A stretch of 37,119 bases of DNA. Origin: Hyphomicrobiales bacterium. GTDB lineage: Bacteria > Pseudomonadota > Alphaproteobacteria > Rhizobiales > Methyloligellaceae. The notes below the pieces were generated by a model that saw nothing but the letters and a program-made list of their open reading frames with translations, ran no database searches and was not told the origin of the DNA. The position numbers and the translations under genes were made by a program. Positions 3,477 through 19,918 of the stretch are shown here, piece by piece; position 1 is the first letter of the stretch, and the number at the start of each line of letters is the position of its first letter. Location of the stretch: assembly GCA_021775555.1 (NCBI GenBank), contig JAJFHP010000061.1, positions 1 to 37,119 on the forward strand. Reading direction: 5' to 3'.

Positions 3477-4574
3477 ATGGAGCCCATCAGAGAGTTGTTA
3501 GTTTCGAATTCCGCCGCAAGCCTGGCGCTCGGCGGCCTGGTCATTGGATTTGTTTTTGGCTTCGTTGTTCACCGGACAAACTTTTGCACCATGGGTTCGC
3601 TTTCAGATATTCTCTCCTTTGGAGACTATCGGCGGTTCCGGTCCTGGCTTCTGGCCATCGCGGTTTCAATTCTCGGTGTCCAGCTTTTGCATGCTGCCGG
3701 TGCGGTTGACCTCGCGAAGTCGATGTATCTCGTCCCGAACTTTAACTGGGCAGGAAATATCGTCGGCGGCCTGATGTTCGGTTTCGGCATGGTGTTTGCC
3801 GGCGGCTGCACAAGCCGCAATCTGGTACGCGCCGGTGCCGGGGATCTGCGCGCGCTGATTGTCCTTATTGTCGTTGGGATTTTCTCCTACATGACGATTG
3901 GTGGCTTGATTGGCCCACTACGGGCGGAATTACAGCAAGCAACACAGATCGACCTGACAGCGATCGGTCCCGATAGCCAGAGTATGGGCACGCTTCTCGC
4001 GCAATTTACCGGCCTGGAGGGTGGCGTTGCAGTGTGGATTGTGTCCGTGGTCCTGGCTGGCGCCTTCCTGATTTTCTGCTTCTCCGATAAAGGATTCAGG
4101 GCTTCGCCAGAGCACATGACTGCCGGGTTCGTTATCGGCGCATGCATTATTGCGGGCTGGGCATTGACGGGTCTTGCCTATGACGATTTGGGCGAACGGG
4201 TGCAGGATCCAATTTCATTGAGTTATGTGCGCCCTTCGGGTGACTCGCTGGAATATCTGATGCGATTTACTGCGCAGATGATCCCGAGCTTCGGCGTGGC
4301 CTCTCTGTTCGGGGCCCTGGCCGGTTCATTCACTTCCGCGATATCGAAGGGGAGATTTCATCTCGCCACTTTCGCTGATCCAGGAGATACGTTGCGCAAT
4401 CTTTTTGGCGCCGCAATGATGGGTGTTGGCGGCGTTCTGGCGATGGGCTGCACGATCGGACAGGCCGTAACCGGGTTGTCCACCCTCGCCATCGGTTCGC
4501 TCATAGCCTTCGGGGCCATTATCGCCGGCGGTGTTGCCGGTATCAAATCGCTCGAAAAGCTTCTGATGGGCTAG
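3477..4574 (+). CDS. YeeE/YedE (TsuA-like) sulfur-compound transporter
   Basis: Inner-membrane transporter of the YeeE/YedE family, whose characterised members import thiosulfate or related sulfur species. The 365-residue protein is strongly hydrophobic, with about nine or more membrane segments. It carries the family's conserved cysteines in NFCTMG (Cys37), AGGCTSRN (Cys111) and MGCTIGQ (Cys325), which are thought to relay the substrate through the pore. The neighbouring convergent tusA is a frequent partner of YeeE genes. In this setting it may bring sulfane sulfur or thiosulfate into the cytoplasm for the TusA/DsrEFH/DsrC relay. The exact substrate cannot be read from sequence. I use no gene symbol because several names exist for this family. 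Confidence 0.88.
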   Translation: MEPIRELLVSNSAASLALGGLVIGFVFGFVVHRTNFCTMGSLSDILSFGDYRRFRSWLLAIAVSILGVQLLHAAGAVDLAKSMYLVPNFNWAGNIVGGLMFGFGMVFAGGCTSRNLVRAGAGDLRALIVLIVVGIFSYMTIGGLIGPLRAELQQATQIDLTAIGPDSQSMGTLLAQFTGLEGGVAVWIVSVVLAGAFLIFCFSDKGFRASPEHMTAGFVIGACIIAGWALTGLAYDDLGERVQDPISLSYVRPSGDSLEYLMRFTAQMIPSFGVASLFGALAGSFTSAISKGRFHLATFADPGDTLRNLFGAAMMGVGGVLAMGCTIGQAVTGLSTLAIGSLIAFGAIIAGGVAGIKSLEKLLMG

Positions 4575-4601
4575 CCCTGAGTGAGGCCGTGACAGACAGA
4601 C

Positions 4602-4829
4602 TCAGGATTTGGCCTTGAGCAGGAAGCGGTAGACGCCGCCATCTTCACCGGATTCCAGAAGCTCGTGCCCCGTCGCATTGCAAAATGCATCGAAATCAGC
4701 AACTGCACCGGGATCGGTCGCCAGCACTTCTAGTGTCCCGCCCGAGGGAACGTCTTTGAGCGCGGCTTTTGCCCTCAGGATAGGAAGCGGGCAATTGAGG
4801 CCCTTTGCATCGAGCGTTGTATCGGCCAT
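4602..4829 (-). CDS. tusA: TusA family sulfur carrier protein
   Basis: TusA is a small cytoplasmic sulfurtransferase that carries persulfide on a conserved cysteine. In sulfur oxidisers it feeds DsrEFH and DsrC. This 75-residue protein contains the diagnostic CPxP motif (NCPLPILR, Cys13) on the first helix, followed by the expected beta-alpha-beta-alpha-beta pattern. I chose the ATG at 4829, which has a CCGGAGAA site just upstream. An in-frame extension to 4961 would add 44 residues unlike the family. The gene is convergent with the YeeE transporter and divergent from the rhodanese-HTH gene. Rhodanese plus TusA is a common pair in oxidative sulfur relays. Confidence 0.93.
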   Translation of the reverse strand: MADTTLDAKGLNCPLPILRAKAALKDVPSGGTLEVLATDPGAVADFDAFCNATGHELLESGEDGGVYRFLLKAKS

Positions 4830-4850
4830 TTCATTCTCCGGCGATTTATA

Positions 4851-4929
4851 TTCAAATTCTTGAATGATTGAACAGGGGATTGCCGTCCCGGTCAAGAGAA
4901 CATCTCCCGTTTGGGGTGTGTTGATATAT
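4851..4929. promoter_or_regulatory. AT-rich putative operator between tusA and the rhodanese-HTH gene
   Basis: The 275-bp divergent spacer holds an inverted repeat TTCAA-ATTC-TTGAA (4851-4864) and the octamer TGATATAT (4922-4929). The octamer recurs in other sulfur-gene promoters of this window. ArsR-type sulfur regulators are known to bind AT-rich inverted repeats of this general kind, but no such regulator gene is visible here. Confidence 0.4.
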
Positions 4930-5104
4930 TTTGTGCGGCCTCCAGTACCGGTTTCTCTCAAAATCAGAATGATTTCCGAGCAGCAAAATTTTTAAATGCT
5001 GTTGATTCCGGTGTTTTCAGCAGACACGGAATTCGTCGCATCGCCATTCCAGCCCCTATAAGGTAGTCCCGGAACTGGCGATTGCATAAAGAAAGAGATT
5101 GAAA

Positions 5105-5827
5105 ATGGGTAACAAGCCCAAAGACGAAGTGGTCGGGATTGATGCCGCAACTGTAAACACGTGGCTCGAAAATGACGAGGCAGTGCTCGTGGATGTTCGC
5201 GAGACGTCCGAGTTCGACCAGGAACACATTCCCGGCGCCATGCTGCTACCCATGTCGATGTTCGATCCGGAATTGTTCCCAAGCGTTCCAGGAAAGAAGG
5301 TTGTCCTTCATTGCGCTGTCGGCAAAAGATCCGAAGCTGCGGGCAAAATGCTGCTGAATGAGGGCTACGAAGGCGCAATCCATATGATTGGCGGCATCCA
5401 GGAATGGAAGGCCGCGGGATATGCCACGGAGGTCCAGTTCATACCGCATCCGGGCCCGCGGGATATTGCTTTGCAGGGCAGTGGGGATGAATCTCCGGAA
5501 GCTGTCTCAAAGCAGGTCCCTCAGGAAGCGGTACAACCCATATCGCCGCCGCCTGGAGAGGTGCTGATCGAGGAATTCCTCTCGCCCCTTGGTATCGGGG
5601 AGAAGGAATTGGCGTCAGATATCGGTGTCTCAGAGGAAACTATAAGCTCAATCATTCAGGGGGAGACGGTGATCACTGCGGAGCTGTCGCTGCGTTTGGC
5701 GCGCTACTTCTCTACGGCATCGGATTTCTGGCTGCATGTTCAGATGGAACATGATTTGGAAAAAGTACGCCGGGACGTTGGCAAGGAGATCAGACGTCAG
5801 GTCACCCCCAGAACCGCGAAGACGTGA
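5105..5827 (+). CDS. Rhodanese domain fused to a HigA-type (XRE) helix-turn-helix
   Basis: The 240-residue protein has two domains. Residues about 8-108 form a rhodanese homology domain with a CAVGKRS active loop. Cys70 there is the only cysteine in the protein and the likely persulfide carrier. After a proline-rich linker (about 112-150), residues 151-235 resemble HigA-type antitoxin XRE domains: PPGEVLIEEFLSPLG, then ELASDIGVSEETIS as the helix-turn-helix core, then LSLRLARYFSTASDFWLHVQ. No HigB-like toxin gene is adjacent. I chose the ATG at 5105 after an AAAGAGA site; a TTG six bases earlier is possible. Its place between tusA and the dsr region suggests either a sulfurtransferase in the relay or a transcription regulator sensing persulfide. 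The second role is inference. Confidence 0.88.
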   Translation: MGNKPKDEVVGIDAATVNTWLENDEAVLVDVRETSEFDQEHIPGAMLLPMSMFDPELFPSVPGKKVVLHCAVGKRSEAAGKMLLNEGYEGAIHMIGGIQEWKAAGYATEVQFIPHPGPRDIALQGSGDESPEAVSKQVPQEAVQPISPPPGEVLIEEFLSPLGIGEKELASDIGVSEETISSIIQGETVITAELSLRLARYFSTASDFWLHVQMEHDLEKVRRDVGKEIRRQVTPRTAKT

Positions 5828-5834
5828 TTTGGGT

Positions 5835-6206
5835 TCAGCGCACGCTTCCGAATGATTTATCGGTACTGCCCGGTGGAGGAGTGAGGTTCGCCAACTTGCA
5901 CCCTTGCGCGATTGGACCACCGGGAAACAGCTGGAATAAATGTTTTCGCCCGCCCTTGTCGCTGAACCGTGCCTCCAGAGCGTCGGCAATCCGGCGCACG
6001 GGCGGGTTCTCCTCGTCTGCATAGCAGGCTTGAAGCACCCGGATCACTTCCCAATGATCCTCGTTCAACTCAAGGTCGTCTGCCCCGGCCAGCTCGATGG
6101 CAGTTTCGCGGGACCATCCCCTGGGAGCGTTTGGAAACGTTTCGTCCCTTTTATCGCGTCCTGTTGGATCGAGTATGGCCTTCATAATGTCGTTAACATC
6201 ACGCAT
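5835..6206 (-). CDS. DsrC/TusE-like protein with the C-terminal redox cysteine replaced by serine
   Basis: DsrC is the sulfur-carrying substrate protein of Dsr. This 123-residue paralogue keeps the family core: LNEDHWEVIRVLQACY near residue 50, PPVRRIADALE near 70 and KHLFQLFPGGPIAQGCKLANL near 90-108. Cys103 aligns with the inner cysteine (CysB) of DsrC. Eleven residues later, where DsrC has its penultimate cysteine (CysA), this protein has Ser114, followed by a nine-residue tail. TusE proteins show the reverse pattern, keeping CysA and lacking CysB. Its start overlaps the preceding small gene by 8 bp and has a GGAGG site, so the two are probably translationally coupled. It cannot form the CysA-CysB trisulfide cycle, so a regulatory or partner-binding role is possible. 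Confidence 0.85.
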   Translation of the reverse strand: MRDVNDIMKAILDPTGRDKRDETFPNAPRGWSRETAIELAGADDLELNEDHWEVIRVLQACYADEENPPVRRIADALEARFSDKGGRKHLFQLFPGGPIAQGCKLANLTPPPGSTDKSFGSVR

Positions 6207-6429
6207 GATTATCGCCTCCTTGCTCCATCTGTTCTGACCAGCCCTGCATAGCTGACCCCCAATGAGCCGCCGTCGGGGTGTCGAGATCGAATATGGTGAA
6301 CCGGCGCCCTTCCCGGACCGTTATCCGCAACAGCTGCATGCCGCTTTCGTGGAGCACATTGTCCAGTGTGATTTCCCGGCCATAGGGAGCAGGGAACCGC
6401 TCCATCCGCGTCACCGCTTCGCTGCTCAC
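6199..6429 (-). CDS. Conserved-looking small protein, unknown function (76 aa)
   Basis: I do not recognise this family with confidence. The protein has no cysteine, no signal peptide and no membrane segment. It looks like a compact cytoplasmic fold with a beta-rich middle (MQLLRITVREGRRFTIFDLD) and a C-terminal helix with several tryptophans and glutamates. Translation starts at a GTG whose G overlaps the TAG stop of the upstream 63-residue gene, with a GGGGAGA site before it. Its 3' end overlaps the DsrC-like gene by 8 bp. This tight packing is the main evidence that it is real, and suggests a function together with the dioxygenase and DsrC-like protein. Confidence 0.75.
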   Translation of the reverse strand: MSSEAVTRMERFPAPYGREITLDNVLHESGMQLLRITVREGRRFTIFDLDTPTAAHWGSAMQGWSEQMEQGGDNHA

Positions 6430-6620
6430 TACTTGTCTCCCCAGTAAAAGGCCGTCTCCAATTGCATTGCCCAGTCGCGCGGCGTATCCCGATAGTCCGG
6501 TTTGACATCAAACTGCAGGTGAATTTCTCCATTTTTTCCCGTCTTGATGACGAGCTGTTTCAGTTCCGGGAAGGACTGAACGTCCGGGTTATGGATTATC
6601 AGATCACTCAATAGCGCCAT
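6429..6620 (-). CDS. Small protein, unknown function (63 aa)
   Basis: A 63-residue acidic to neutral protein without cysteines, signal peptide or membrane helix. It has an alternating hydrophobic pattern (LKQLVIKTGKNGEIHLQFDV) suggesting two beta strands, then a tryptophan-containing C-terminal helix (PRDWAMQLETAFYWGDK). It begins 14 bp after the dioxygenase stop and its TAG stop overlaps the GTG start of the next gene, so it is likely part of one transcript. I assign no function. Protein-protein adaptor or subunit roles are open. Confidence 0.7.
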   Translation of the reverse strand: MALLSDLIIHNPDVQSFPELKQLVIKTGKNGEIHLQFDVKPDYRDTPRDWAMQLETAFYWGDK

Positions 6621-6634
6621 TGGCTCACTCGCTT

Positions 6635-7603
6635 TTAGTGTTTGGCAATTGTCATCGGGCTTGCCGCAGCAATCCGGTACAGATAGCGCATGCGGAACAG
6701 CAATCTTTTGCTGGCCTCCGCCTGTGCGCCGCCCGCATCAAATCCCGACCGGCTGTGAAGCACATTGTTGCAGATCAGGCCCTGCCCAGGCGCCAATTTA
6801 TGTTTCAACAATAGTGGCTCGCTTCCACTCAACAGATGGTTGAGAAAACCTACAGCGGCCTGCGTGTCATCATCCTTCCTCCAAATGATATTCCGGCCGC
6901 GCGCGCTATATCGCATATGAAGAGTATGCGTCTCCCTATCAATGGAGATCACTGGTCCCCTGCTGACCGGGCGCACCTGACCTGAAGCTTCCCTGTTTTC
7001 CGGAATGATCATGGCATCTGGATGCATCAAAGCCGCAACATAGGCAGGGTTCTCATCACGCAGGCGGATATAGGCAATTTCCGGATCAAGAAGCGAATTC
7101 TCACCGCCTTCGTCTGCATCACGTACACAGTGCAGGAGGAAGGACCGGATGCGTTTCTCCGGCGCATTGTAATATCCGTCGGTATGCCAGGTGAGCGGCC
7201 GATTTGTGTAAGGAATATAGCCGCTCCGTTTGTGATCGCTTGCAACCTCGAGCGAAACAATCTTGTCTTCTGCCGCGGAACGGTGGCTTTCCAGGTGTGT
7301 TAGGCCGAGCGAGCTTGCAAAGACGGGCAGATCACGTCTCACTGCTTTCTCGTCCTGTACGTTTGGCTGGCTGGCATAAATAGCCATGTTTGCCCGCCCG
7401 CAGAGACTTACAATTTCCGCGCGCTCAGAGTCTGTCGGCCTTGAGAGATCGCCTAATTCCACGACTATGTCCGAAGCACACGAGGGATAGTTGGCAAGCT
7501 TGTTGTCCCGCCAGCTGCGATATGCGGTGTCATGGTCCAGGTCGAACGGATTATCCAGGGACTGACCCCGGGATTCTTGCAAGACTTGCTGTGTATTTTC
7601 CAT
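6635..7603 (-). CDS. TauD/TfdA-type Fe(II)/2-oxoglutarate dioxygenase-like protein
   Basis: The 322-residue protein carries the iron-binding facial triad of the TauD/TfdA superfamily: HTD at His140/Asp142 (in LTWHTDGYYN) and a C-terminal His283 (NNVLHSRSGF). An arginine-rich strand near 300-310 (RLLFRMRYLYR) would hold the 2-oxoglutarate carboxylate. Family members oxidise small substrates such as taurine, alkylsulfonates or gamma-butyrobetaine. I chose the ATG at 7603; an in-frame extension to 7714 adds 37 basic residues that look unlike coding sequence. It leads a minus-strand operon with two small genes and a DsrC-like gene, divergent from dsrA. Release of sulfite from an organosulfonate would fit the setting but is speculation: no tau/ssu-type transporter is present. 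Confidence 0.85.
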   Translation of the reverse strand: MENTQQVLQESRGQSLDNPFDLDHDTAYRSWRDNKLANYPSCASDIVVELGDLSRPTDSERAEIVSLCGRANMAIYASQPNVQDEKAVRRDLPVFASSLGLTHLESHRSAAEDKIVSLEVASDHKRSGYIPYTNRPLTWHTDGYYNAPEKRIRSFLLHCVRDADEGGENSLLDPEIAYIRLRDENPAYVAALMHPDAMIIPENREASGQVRPVSRGPVISIDRETHTLHMRYSARGRNIIWRKDDDTQAAVGFLNHLLSGSEPLLLKHKLAPGQGLICNNVLHSRSGFDAGGAQAEASKRLLFRMRYLYRIAAASPMTIAKH

Positions 7604-7724
7604 AAAACCACTTTTGGTCAAACGATAACATTCACCCCGACACAGCGAAAAACAAGCAGCCGGGTGGTCCCGTGAGACCCTTGATATGCGGCTGGACCGG
7701 GTATTTCCGAGCAACTCATAAATT

Positions 7725-7750
7725 TGATATATTCATAATTTGTGATATAT
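7725..7750. promoter_or_regulatory. Tandem TGATATAT motifs in the dsrA/dioxygenase divergent promoter
   Basis: Two exact copies of TGATATAT lie at 7725-7732 and 7743-7750, 18 bp apart start to start. They sit in a markedly AT-rich patch of an otherwise GC-balanced 294-bp spacer (7604-7897). The same octamer occurs upstream of tusA, fccA (reverse orientation) and the second soxW-like gene. The spacing allows binding on the same DNA face or overlap with a -10 element. Either way it is the best candidate for the dsr control region. Confidence 0.45.
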
Positions 7751-7824
7751 AGTATTATAAATGTATCCACTCTGGCAATCCATGGGTTGGCCGCTGGTGA
7801 ATGCTAGGGAGGATCAGGGAATTT

Positions 7825-7873
7825 AAAGCGCTCGAAGGCTCGCGGATTATTCCGTGAGACGTCGAAGCGCTTT
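7825..7873 (+). other. Long bulged stem-loop in the dsrA leader
   Basis: An outer stem pairs AAAGCGCTCGA (7825-7835) with TCGAAGCGCTTT (7862-7873), 11 bp with one bulged base. After a small internal loop, an inner stem pairs CTCGCGGA (7839-7846) with TCCGTGAG (7851-7858) through one G-U pair, closed by TTAT. It ends 24 bp before the dsrA ATG, leaving the AGGGGTGA ribosome site free. No T run follows, so it is not a simple terminator. Roles in mRNA stability, processing or regulation are possible. Confidence 0.6.
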
Positions 7874-7897
7874 GAAAATAATCAGGGGTGACGAGAC

Positions 7898-9238
7898 ATG
7901 CCAAGTCCAGACAGTTCTTCGAAGAAGAACGGAAATCCATCGCCAAAAAACGGAAAATCCGATGGGAAACAGCATCCCACGCCCATGCTGGATGAATTGG
8001 AGGGCGGTCCCTGGCCAAGTTTCGTAACCGGGTTGAAGCGGCTTCGCGATTCACAAGACAAGCAATACGCACCGATGATGAATGACCTGCTCGGTCAGCT
8101 TGAGCATTCCTACGAGAAAAAGCTCGGCTTCTGGAAGGGCGGCGTCGTCAGCGTCTACGGTTACGGTGGCGGTATCATCCCGCGTTTTTCCCAAGTTGCC
8201 GAAAAATTTCCCGAGTCGAAGGAGTTCCATACGCTCCGCGTGATGCCGCCTGCCGGATTCCATTACGACACCGATATCATGCGTAAGATCTGCGATATCT
8301 GGGAAGAGTTCGGCTCTGGCCTGATCGCGTTCCACGGCCAGACCGGCAACATCATGTTCCAGGGGGCAACCACCGAGAACACGCAAAAAGCGTTCGATGC
8401 ACTCAACAAAATCGGTTTCGACCTCGGAGGTGCGGGACCCTGCATGCGTACGGGCATGAGTTGCGTGGGCGCCGCCCGTTGCGAGATGTCGAACTATGAC
8501 GAGCAGCGCGCGCTTCGCTCCATCATCAACGAATATCTCGATGAGATGCACCGCCCAGCGATGCCGTACAAGTTCAAGTTCAAATTCTCCGGTTGCCCGA
8601 ACGACTGTGTGAACTCGGTCCAGCGCGCCGATTTCGCGGTGATCGGCACCTGGCGTGACGACATAAAGGTCAACCAGGACGAGGTGAAAGCCTATGTCGA
8701 GAAGGTTGGCCGTAAATACATGATCGACTCGGTGATCACCAATTGCCCAACCCGCGCATTGAGCCTCAATGACGACAATACCCTTGATGTCGACAATCAA
8801 TCTTGTGTGCGCTGCATGCATTGCCTGAATGTCATGCCCAAGGCGTTGTCGCCGGGTGATGATAAGGGTGTCACAATCCTGATCGGCGGAAAGCGCGCAC
8901 TCAAGGTCGGTGATCTGATGGGCACCGTCATCGTACCTTTCATGAAGCTTGAATCTGATGAGGATTATGAAAAGCTCACCGAGTTTGCCGGCGAGGTTAT
9001 GGAGTTTTTCTCCGAAAATGCCTTGGAGCATGAGCGGATTGGCGAGACCATAGATCGCATTGGACTCCCGGCTTTCCTGGATGCTCTGGAAATCGATCCG
9101 GACCCGAACATGGTCAAGCATCCCCGCACTTCCTCTTACGTCCGTACCGACGATTTCACCGAGGAAGCGGAAAAATATTTCGAGAAGAAAAAAGCAAAAG
9201 AAGCCGAAGAAGCTAAGCGTGTTGCTGCCGCTGAATGA
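7898..9238 (+). CDS. dsrA: DsrA, reverse-type dissimilatory sulfite reductase alpha subunit
   Basis: DsrAB is a cytoplasmic siroheme enzyme; in sulfur oxidisers it oxidises sulfur bound to DsrC towards sulfite. The 446-residue protein has the siroheme/[4Fe-4S] cysteines in CMRTGMSC and AARCEM (Cys182, Cys189, Cys195) and in SGCPNDC (Cys233, Cys237). An inserted ferredoxin domain follows (NCPTRAL, then CVRCMHCLNVMP near 303-315). A lysine- and glutamate-rich tail ends the protein. The ATG at 7898 has an AGGGGTGA site 8 bp upstream. Accompanying dsrEFH and dsrL identify the reverse (oxidative) type. It is the first gene of the operon. Confidence 0.97.
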   Translation: MPSPDSSSKKNGNPSPKNGKSDGKQHPTPMLDELEGGPWPSFVTGLKRLRDSQDKQYAPMMNDLLGQLEHSYEKKLGFWKGGVVSVYGYGGGIIPRFSQVAEKFPESKEFHTLRVMPPAGFHYDTDIMRKICDIWEEFGSGLIAFHGQTGNIMFQGATTENTQKAFDALNKIGFDLGGAGPCMRTGMSCVGAARCEMSNYDEQRALRSIINEYLDEMHRPAMPYKFKFKFSGCPNDCVNSVQRADFAVIGTWRDDIKVNQDEVKAYVEKVGRKYMIDSVITNCPTRALSLNDDNTLDVDNQSCVRCMHCLNVMPKALSPGDDKGVTILIGGKRALKVGDLMGTVIVPFMKLESDEDYEKLTEFAGEVMEFFSENALEHERIGETIDRIGLPAFLDALEIDPDPNMVKHPRTSSYVRTDDFTEEAEKYFEKKKAKEAEEAKRVAAAE

Positions 9239-11710: not shown

Positions 11711-12043
11711 ATGCCATATCAGATGAACGGAACCACCGTTGAACATGACGAGGAAGGCTATATTGAGGAACTCGACAAGTGGAGCAAAGAGCTCGCCGAG
11801 ATTATCGCCCAGGACGAGAATATCGATATGACCGAAGAGCATTGGGAGGTCGTAAATTTTCTGCGTGATTATTACGAGGAATATCAGATCGCTCCAGCCG
11901 TCCGCGTTCTTATCAAGTCGATCAAGAAATCAATGGGCAAGGAGAAAGGTAACAACAAGTATCTCTACACCCTCTTCCCCTACGGCCCAGCCAAACAGGC
12001 TTGTAAAATTGCTGGACTGCCCAAGCCCACAGGCTGCGTCTGA
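11711..12043 (+). CDS. dsrC: DsrC, sulfur carrier protein with both redox cysteines
   Basis: DsrC carries the sulfur substrate of DsrAB as a persulfide or trisulfide and links it to the membrane DsrMKJOP complex. The 110-residue protein ends KQACKIAGLPKPTGCV. Cys98 (CysB) and the penultimate Cys109 (CysA) are both present with the standard spacing of 11, so it is a full-function DsrC. MTEEHWEVVNFLRDYYEEY is the typical core helix. An AAGAGGAG site precedes the ATG. A second DsrC-like gene at 5835-6206 lacks CysA. A small GGCG/CGCC hairpin (12054-12065) lies just after the stop. Confidence 0.97.
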   Translation: MPYQMNGTTVEHDEEGYIEELDKWSKELAEIIAQDENIDMTEEHWEVVNFLRDYYEEYQIAPAVRVLIKSIKKSMGKEKGNNKYLYTLFPYGPAKQACKIAGLPKPTGCV

Positions 12044-18913: not shown

Positions 18914-19918
18914 ATGACCGACCTCCATCCTTTCGCCCGCTTTGTCGCCATCCTCGGGCGTGGAAAATCGCTGACGCGCTCGCTGACAATCGAAGAAGCG
19001 GAAGAGGCGATGGGCATGATACTGCGCGAAGAAGCGCTGCCGGAACAGCTCGGCGCCTTCATGATGCTTTTGCGCGTTAAGGAGGAAAGCCCGGAAGAAA
19101 TCGCCGGGTTTGTGCGCGCCGCGCGTGCGACGTTCTCTCTCCCGAACAAGGTACCGCAGGTAGACATTGACTGGTCCTCCTATGCCGGCAAGCGCAGACA
19201 GCTTCCCTGGTTCCTCCTCTCGGCACTTCTATTGGCGCGAAACGGCTACCGGATATTCATGCATGGCACCGAAGGGCATACACCCGGGCGTCTCTATACG
19301 CGCGAGACCCTGGAGCTGCTCGGCTTTCCGGCAGCCCAAAACCTCCAGGAAGCAGCTGATCAGATAGGCCGGCATAATCTTGCCTATGTACCGCTTGAAG
19401 TCATCAGCCCGAGGCTCAGATCCCTCATTGATTTGCGGCCGGTTTTCGGTCTGCGCTCGCCGGTGCACACACTTGCGCGCTTGCTCAATCCCTTCGATGC
19501 ACCCTGCATGCTCCAGGGCATTTTCCATCCCGGCTATATGGAGGTTCATCAGGGTGCTGCGATGCTGCTGAAGCAACCGCATATGGCGGTCTTTCGCGGT
19601 GAAGGCGGCGAGATTGAGCGCCGACCCAACAAGCCCTGCGAGGTATGGACGGTCCATAACGGCGAGACGGCTGCGGAACGCTGGCCGCCGATTCTGCCTG
19701 AGCCACGTCGTGCACCGGACGAAGAGATGAATTTCAACGAGTTACGGGCCCTGTGGCAGGGCGAAATCACGAATGACTATGCCGAAGCCACGGTAATCGG
19801 AACACTTGCAATCACGCTCAAGGCGCTTGGCAGCGCGGTGAATATGGAAGAAGCCGAGACGATGGCGCAGACCCTCTGGCAGGACAGGGACAGGGACCAG
19901 TTCCTGGAAGTGGCGTAA
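18914..19918 (+). CDS. TrpD2/YbiB-like (anthranilate phosphoribosyltransferase-related) protein
   Basis: The 334-residue protein resembles the TrpD/YbiB superfamily. The N-terminal helical domain reads SLTIEEAEEAMGMILREEALPEQLGAFMMLLR-like sequence, followed by a nucleoside-phosphorylase-type domain. Where true anthranilate phosphoribosyltransferases have the GTGGD motif that binds PRPP, this protein has HGTEGHTPGR near 117-126, so it is unlikely to be tryptophan biosynthetic. YbiB-type members have been linked to nucleic-acid binding. I chose the ATG at 18914, 22 bp after dsrP; a longer start at 18851 overlaps dsrP. Only 4 bp separate it from dsrN, so it is transcribed with the dsr genes. 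Its role there is unknown. Confidence 0.8.
   Translation: MTDLHPFARFVAILGRGKSLTRSLTIEEAEEAMGMILREEALPEQLGAFMMLLRVKEESPEEIAGFVRAARATFSLPNKVPQVDIDWSSYAGKRRQLPWFLLSALLLARNGYRIFMHGTEGHTPGRLYTRETLELLGFPAAQNLQEAADQIGRHNLAYVPLEVISPRLRSLIDLRPVFGLRSPVHTLARLLNPFDAPCMLQGIFHPGYMEVHQGAAMLLKQPHMAVFRGEGGEIERRPNKPCEVWTVHNGETAAERWPPILPEPRRAPDEEMNFNELRALWQGEITNDYAEATVIGTLAITLKALGSAVNMEEAETMAQTLWQDRDRDQFLEVA

Follow-up and report, generated by a model that had tools for sequence, protein, structure and literature searches.

A dsrQ-containing gene set facing dsrA in a Hyphomicrobiales bacterium, a possible accessory module of the oxidative Dsr pathway

The window, that is, the whole stretch of 37,119 nucleotides analysed here, contains four packed genes on the minus strand between positions 5835 and 7603, just where a previous sequence-only reading had placed them. 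The gene proximal to dsrA (6635..7603, minus strand, ATG start) encodes DsrQ, a 322-aa 2-oxoglutarate/Fe(II) oxygenase of the TauD/TfdA family, whose TauD-type assignment was borne out by a PF02668 score of 62.8 bits against a Pfam cut-off of 27. A gap of 14 bp separates it from sp63 (a name coined in this analysis; 6429..6620, minus strand, ATG start), which encodes a protein of 63 aa. The TAG stop of sp63 shares one base with the GTG start of the following gene (TAGTG), whose 76-aa product belongs to DUF6967 (PF22295; 6199..6429, minus strand), and this gene overlaps by 8 bp with the last one (5835..6206, minus strand, ATG start), encoding a 123-aa paralogue of the DsrC/TusE family that matches TIGR03342 and, in agreement with its earlier naming as DsrC-like, PF04358 (67.3 bits, Pfam cut-off 24.9). 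The middle pair had been described as two unknown small proteins; this stands for the 63-aa protein, which has no Pfam family, but not for the 76-aa one, which has a family name. From the packing of the four genes, we infer that they are probably co-transcribed. All four are under purifying selection, with pN of 0.08-0.30 against pS of 0.48-0.81 in 21 of 21 pairs with relatives of the same genus or family. A simple codon-usage gene caller skipped the DUF6967 and DsrC-like genes of the window and favoured a plus-strand ORF there; as conservation is the stronger evidence, all four genes were taken as real.

The divergent partner of dsrQ is dsrA (7898..9238, plus strand; TIGR02064, 574 bits), and the intergenic control region common to both genes, already pointed out in the sequence-only reading, spans 294 bp (7604..7897). 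A canonical DsrC is encoded at 11711..12043 on the plus strand, and its translation ends in TGCV, in contrast to the paralogue. The window also carries a SoxB-like gene, the dsr genes from dsrABEFHC onward, a DsrN-type gene and flavocytochrome c genes. Its metagenome-assembled genome is Hyphomicrobiaceae-like, a label borne by records of the same genus, among them L052 and L055. Other features surround the set. At 5099-5827 (plus strand), a rhodanese domain (residues 17-106) and a HigA-type antitoxin/HTH domain (residues 150-225; TIGR02607, 84 bits, cut-off 47.7) share a single open frame, a fusion matched among 51 loci solely in the two of the window itself. A YeeE/TsuA-like Sulf_transp gene and a TusA gene adjoin the four genes at 3477-4961, and both lie again beside the set in three loci of the same genus (L052, L053 and L055). 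In the dsr cluster, a TrpD-like protein (18914-19915, plus strand; Glycos_trans_3N, 58.1 bits) is encoded immediately 5' of the CbiA/DsrN-type gene.

In the dsrQ-dsrA intergenic region, five promoter-like sites were counted against 0.5 in shuffled sequences. The one directed toward dsrA (7724..7753, plus strand) was scored as TTGATA and TATAGT separated by 18 bp, and a spacing of 16 bp to TATATA also fits. It lies in a block running from TTGATATATTCA to TGTGATATATA (7700-7765), which is kept in the genus and family members tested and does not exceed shuffles further out. The element TTGATATATTCA itself is exact in the window, has 0-2 mismatches in the six genus or family genomes tested (L032-L037) and, in the more distant loci tested, was no more frequent than in shuffles. 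A palindrome, ATATT(N1-4)AATAT with at most one mismatch, was present in 23 of the 54 gaps, where shuffled sequences would give 5.6; however, as a wider operator it was discarded, with close variants reaching 21, 20 and 19 among 64 AT-only patterns, and on 45 loci not used to conceive it the count was 14 against 13, which reflects AT-richness rather than a site.

The oxygenase fits dsrQ, a known gene to which no function has been assigned. According to the passages cited from PMC7596348, the name was given by Lenk et al. (2012) to a divergent tauD-like gene upstream of dsrA, and dsrQ is also a named gene in those cited from PMC6018796; therefore, the label of undescribed that the set had received cannot be kept for the oxygenase. 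The window gene shares with the dsrQ of those passages its tauD-like nature, its transcription away from dsrA and its occurrence in sulfur oxidisers, whereas the cited passages do not mention the pair of small companions, the DsrC without its cysteine or the counts of co-occurrence reported here, although the original may describe them. The same arrangement is present in loci labelled Rhodobacteraceae, Marinosulfonomonas, Marimonas and Jhaorihella (L057, L069, L080 and L120, respectively).

A profile search of the PDB gave TmpA (8e-10), DfmD (6e-6) and GBBH (5e-4) as the nearest solved relatives of DsrQ. The alignment with TmpA and gamma-butyrobetaine dioxygenase extends over about 160 residues including the HxD and the H, but DsrQ is shorter and constitutes a single dsr-linked family, and it scored below the NCBIfam cut-offs for TmpA (59.6 against 400 bits) and GBBH (41.1 against 414.75). 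In an alignment of 130 rows (129 distinct sequences plus that of the window), H140, D142, H283 and R300 are invariant in 130 of 130; the first three we take to be the HxD...H iron triad, and the last presumably is the arginine that holds 2-oxoglutarate. For the 80 named loci, the invariance of HxD is partly built in, since the pattern WHTDGYY was one of the means of finding them. Y132, Y145, R182, R211, R235, W241, N280, R285, R304 and R306 are also invariant in all 130 rows and R231 is kept in 129; this makes eight arginines that vary in at most one row, which hints at an anionic substrate. Among the 55 of 99 loci with all three genes long enough, the distances of DsrA and DsrQ correlate (r 0.69; none of 2000 permutations as high; DsrA-DsrB, 0.94), although any two vertically inherited genes would correlate.

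A link of the set to dsrAB across genomes, raised by the sequence-only reading, was found in the order sample, composed of 297 genomes in all of which the DUF6967, DsrA and DsrQ families were searched. DUF6967 was above the cut-off in 34 genomes, and a 35th (G061) gave a match below it; counted by genus with G061 included, it was present in 19 of 122. The dsrA gene was above the cut-off in 32 genomes, to which dsrB-level matches add G059 and G011, the latter also with part of dsrA where a contig ends. The 34 DUF6967 genomes are the same 34 that show dsr (Fisher 2e-45, a value inflated by relatedness). DsrQ exceeded 400 bits in 31 of the 297, every one inside those 34, and seven further genomes gave distant matches to its profile only, all below 60 bits, with at most seven candidates scored per genome. 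By their coordinates, DUF6967 and dsrA lie within 2.5 kb in 28 of the 34 (in G011 as seen in locus L043); in the other six, DUF6967 is about 15 kb away on one contig in two, about 6 kb away in one and on another contig in three. The small protein sp63 is present in 29 of the 31 dsr genomes with an examined locus, the exceptions being G014 and G062. A second copy of DsrQ was observed in G014 (L044, G014:C234), with no sp63, DUF6967 or dsrA in the 3.5 kb examined. Of the proposed candidate module, the linkage to dsr proved far beyond chance, and the oxygenase, the 63-aa protein and DUF6967 are frequent neighbours; as a strict unit of four genes it is local, since among the loci examined the DsrC-like gene comes immediately after DUF6967 in four genomes, all of this genus.

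In a phylum sample of 398 genomes, four of whose dsr genomes are common to the order sample, 53 had dsrA at a threshold of 1e-60, 41 had DsrQ at one of 1e-40, and 39 had the two together; DsrQ occurred without dsrA in G334 (99% complete) and G465 (65%), and dsrA without DsrQ in 14 of the 53. DUF6967 was detected in 10 of the 53 dsrA genomes, all with DsrQ (G000, G022, G025, G255, G505, G518, G531, G552, G570 and G641), and the other 43, which belong to other families of the phylum and which we suspect to be Magnetococcia, gave no DUF6967 or sp63 match. Among 51 entries searched outside the order, DUF6967 was absent in 45 and sp63 in 50. In the three examined loci of other families where DsrQ is near dsr (L172, L173 and L174), it comes immediately after dsrA-dsrB-dsrL, all on one strand in a compact arrangement, and the coordinates of G405, G411 and G415 show the same spacing; in G354 and G319, it stands apart from dsr (L175-L178). 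Several genomes of the other phylum families have two dsrA genes.

Named genomes were scanned through the best 80 of at least 587 confirmed relatives, so that the following counts concern near relatives only. Divergent dsrA was observed in 58 of the 80 loci, within 1 kb in 53; sp63 was immediately downstream of DsrQ in 46, and DUF6967 was on the DsrQ strand in 26. A locus labelled Bradyrhizobiaceae (L059) has DsrQ beside dsrA with neither sp63 nor DUF6967 in the DNA examined. In two of the 22 loci without dsrA nearby, the contig ends intervene, with a dsrA piece at the end in L075 and a stop just past DsrQ in L098; a dsrA-profile match at 1e-20 or better was found in 19 of the remaining 20 genomes, above the cut-off in 14, and none in one.

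In the order sample, the phototrophy gene pufL is present in 6 of the 34 genomes with dsr, and DsrQ accompanies dsr in 28 of 28 genomes without pufL and in 3 of 6 with it (Fisher 0.003, uncorrected for kinship). The three dsr genomes without DsrQ (G073, G139 and G190) are all pufL-positive and of one genus, so their losses may be a single event; in two of them, no DsrQ was found in the 17-19 kb around dsrA (L185 and L189). Another member of that genus, G212 (88% complete), keeps DsrQ, and pufL was not found in it. It would seem that what certain phototrophs have given up is the enzyme that uses oxygen, although three other pufL genomes keep it. The three genomes without DsrQ keep sp63 and DUF6967 beside dsrA (L010, L017 and L018), which suggests that these two small proteins work for Dsr as such.

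Regarding these companions, the DUF6967 protein is a clear member of PF22295 (98.9 bits, cut-off 27), a family without described function that is tied here to dsr, and no paper on it was found in the CC-licensed PMC literature. Besides PF22295, its sequence gave only weak scattered matches (best in Pfam 0.0012, in 2 of 32 members; best in PDB 0.19). Its model (beta-beta-beta-beta-alpha, pLDDT 92.7) had SnoaL-like folds at the top of a Foldseek search by E-value (0.33, TM 0.42); Pur-alpha 3nm7 gave the highest TM among the matches listed (0.65, E 0.8) and a PC4-like protein a TM of 0.53, none of the three being significant. The sp63 protein carries the motif FDVKPDYxDTPxxW, has no Pfam match and is modelled by AlphaFold2 as three helices (pLDDT 90), for which the 10 PDB matches obtained (best E 4.0) included none worth reporting. 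A homology between both proteins, suggested by similar strand-helix patterns, was rejected by profile comparison (probability 1.5%). A DsrU with no function assigned is named in the passages cited from PMC6018796, and one of the two small proteins could correspond to it.

The DsrC paralogue is recognised by the DsrC/TusE/DsvC profile (TIGR03342, 62.8 bits, cut-off 53.5), but its C-terminus reads GSTDKSFGSVR in place of TGCV and lacks the penultimate cysteine, which in the DsrC of Allochromatium vinosum binds sulfur according to the passages cited from PMC3397948. In the order loci examined, such a gene immediately follows DUF6967 in four genomes, all of this genus (G000, G251, G297 and G298), and is missing from the same neighbourhood in the relatives G301, G268 and G303. 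Among the best 80 of at least 587 named relatives, a DsrC-family gene lies on the DsrQ strand within 4.5 kb in 35, and the penultimate cysteine is gone in 35 of 35, with 32 ending in KGGY and 3, from this genus, in SFGSVR, whereas 47 of 50 opposite-strand DsrC-family genes of the same loci, mostly the copy of the dsr operon, end in GCV or GCI. Two tails so unlike suggest that a sulfur-dead DsrC arrived beside dsrQ at least twice. Of the same best 80, 35 have a gene for a Cas6/Cmx6-family protein on the DsrQ strand, 32 of them together with the DsrC-like gene; these loci are of gamma/beta-type sulfur oxidisers, and none of the 35 is labelled Alphaproteobacteria. One example, inside a dsrQ cluster (L087:3481-4176), scored 132 bits with TIGR02807. 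Among these best 80 loci, the siroheme synthase gene cysG lies on the DsrQ strand within 4.5 kb in 14. Searches found no literature linking rspA to DsrC, TusE and cysteine, or cmx6 to dsr. A few kb past the dsrQ cluster, 14 named loci (L097:7711-8382 and 13 others) encode a 2OG oxygenase-like protein, cluster c8, which we take to be PiuC-type.

We propose, with about an even chance of being right, that these genes form a module accessory to oxidative (reverse) Dsr in which DsrQ acts in a maturation-like manner on a Dsr component under oxygen. In favour are the order of the genes, their purifying selection, the intact catalytic residues, the co-occurrence with dsr and, in the order sample, the absence of DsrQ only from pufL-bearing dsr genomes. 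DsrQ would be catalytically active as a 2-oxoglutarate/Fe(II) oxygenase on a single substrate, conserved and probably anionic, working where the Dsr pathway runs with oxygen, and its target could be found within the Dsr machinery, either among the cofactors (siroheme, for instance) or at a residue of one of the proteins. The proximity of CysG also counts in favour of the module, yet it is seen in only 14 of the best 80 loci and could mean mere cofactor supply. In Alphaproteobacteria, sp63 and DUF6967 may be small Dsr-dedicated partners, with or without DsrQ, and the DsrC-like protein, which could carry no persulfide at the usual cysteine, probably docks on DsrC partners as an adaptor or regulator. 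The placement of DsrQ after dsrL in L172-L174 is an arrangement independent of the divergent one and supports the accessory module. Against it stand the 14 of 53 dsrA genomes that lack DsrQ and the two genomes (G334 and G465) with DsrQ and no dsrA; moreover, the small partners are not universal, being absent from most of the 51 entries searched outside the order and both missing from the examined DNA of L059.

The main rival, which we regard as unlikely, is that the set controls expression: DsrQ would be a sensor of oxygen and 2-oxoglutarate that hydroxylates a partner and thereby adjusts dsr expression. The effectors on DNA or RNA, in an equally tentative assignment, would be DUF6967 with its Pur-alpha/PC4-like fold, the cysteine-less DsrC and, in gamma/beta-type clusters, the Cas6-like protein. 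The divergence of dsrQ from dsrA over a shared control region counts in favour, but in L172-L174 dsrQ lies downstream of dsrL and is not divergent, and in the loci tested no conserved operator extends past the genus and family. The likeness of the DUF6967 model to the nucleic-acid-binding Pur-alpha (TM 0.65) points the same way, yet its E-value of 0.8 ranks under the SnoaL-like folds and it has no support from sequence. The Cas6/Cmx6 genes on the DsrQ strand (35 of the best 80 of at least 587) and the loss of the sulfur cysteine in the DsrC-like protein also agree with expression control; besides, the DsrC of A. vinosum is reported to bind the DNA that precedes dsrA. The cluster (Cas6-like, TusE/DsrC-like, DUF6967 and oxygenase) could likewise be read as machinery that modifies tRNA or processes the long dsr transcript. 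The families found in gamma/beta clusters count in favour, and TusE is part of a tRNA thiolation relay in the passages cited from PMC3397948; we find this very improbable, for none of the 35 Cas6-like loci (of the best 80 of at least 587) is labelled Alphaproteobacteria, the DsrC-like proteins lack the sulfur-binding cysteine of DsrC, and no RNA target was seen.

The sequence-only reading had suggested that the oxygenase feeds sulfite from an organosulfur compound. DsrQ would then resemble taurine dioxygenase and free sulfite from ambient or internal sulfonates, which we judge quite improbable. Its membership in the TauD family and the arginine pair R300/R304, which we take to resemble that of TauD, count in favour, but no taurine dioxygenase is among the eight PDB sequences matched by the DsrQ profile up to E 1. 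An SsuA-type binding protein of sulfonate importers (TIGR01728) was above the cut-off in 1 of 31 DsrQ genomes against 2 of 3 without DsrQ (3 of 34 overall); the genome of the window comes close (162 bits, just below the cut-off of 163.5), and at 1e-15 some match appears in 19 of the 31 and none in 12. The near-strict tie of DsrQ to dsr also speaks against it. So does the pathway, as oxidative Dsr yields sulfite and such a supply would have no need of Dsr. The importer and structure results thus lend little support to sulfonate breakdown, although an internal sulfonate or another importer could still be involved. The suggestion coincides with a published one, as the passages cited from PMC7596348 speculate on oxygenolytic release of sulfite from sulfonates by dsrQ. 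In a further reading, quite improbable to us, DsrQ is an oxygen-sensing hydroxylase acting on DUF6967, sp63 or the sulfur-dead DsrC, a switch by which dsr transcription, RNA processing or the assembly of Dsr would be adjusted to oxygen; if true, it would explain why certain phototrophs drop the enzyme and keep the small proteins.

Much of biological sulfur oxidation is driven by the Dsr pathway, whose standard list of parts derives in large measure from the phototroph A. vinosum. Three points are new here: DsrQ is one member of a larger set dedicated to Dsr, together with two small proteins of which little is known; where DsrQ is missing from a dsr genome of the order, pufL is present; and a sulfur-dead DsrC is a recurrent neighbour of DsrQ. 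The set looks like an addition made by sulfur oxidisers working with oxygen, its two tiny protein families are concrete candidates for missing Dsr factors, and the published sulfonate guess for DsrQ can now be tested against an alternative. Altogether, the set probably services the sulfur-burning machinery rather than feeding it.
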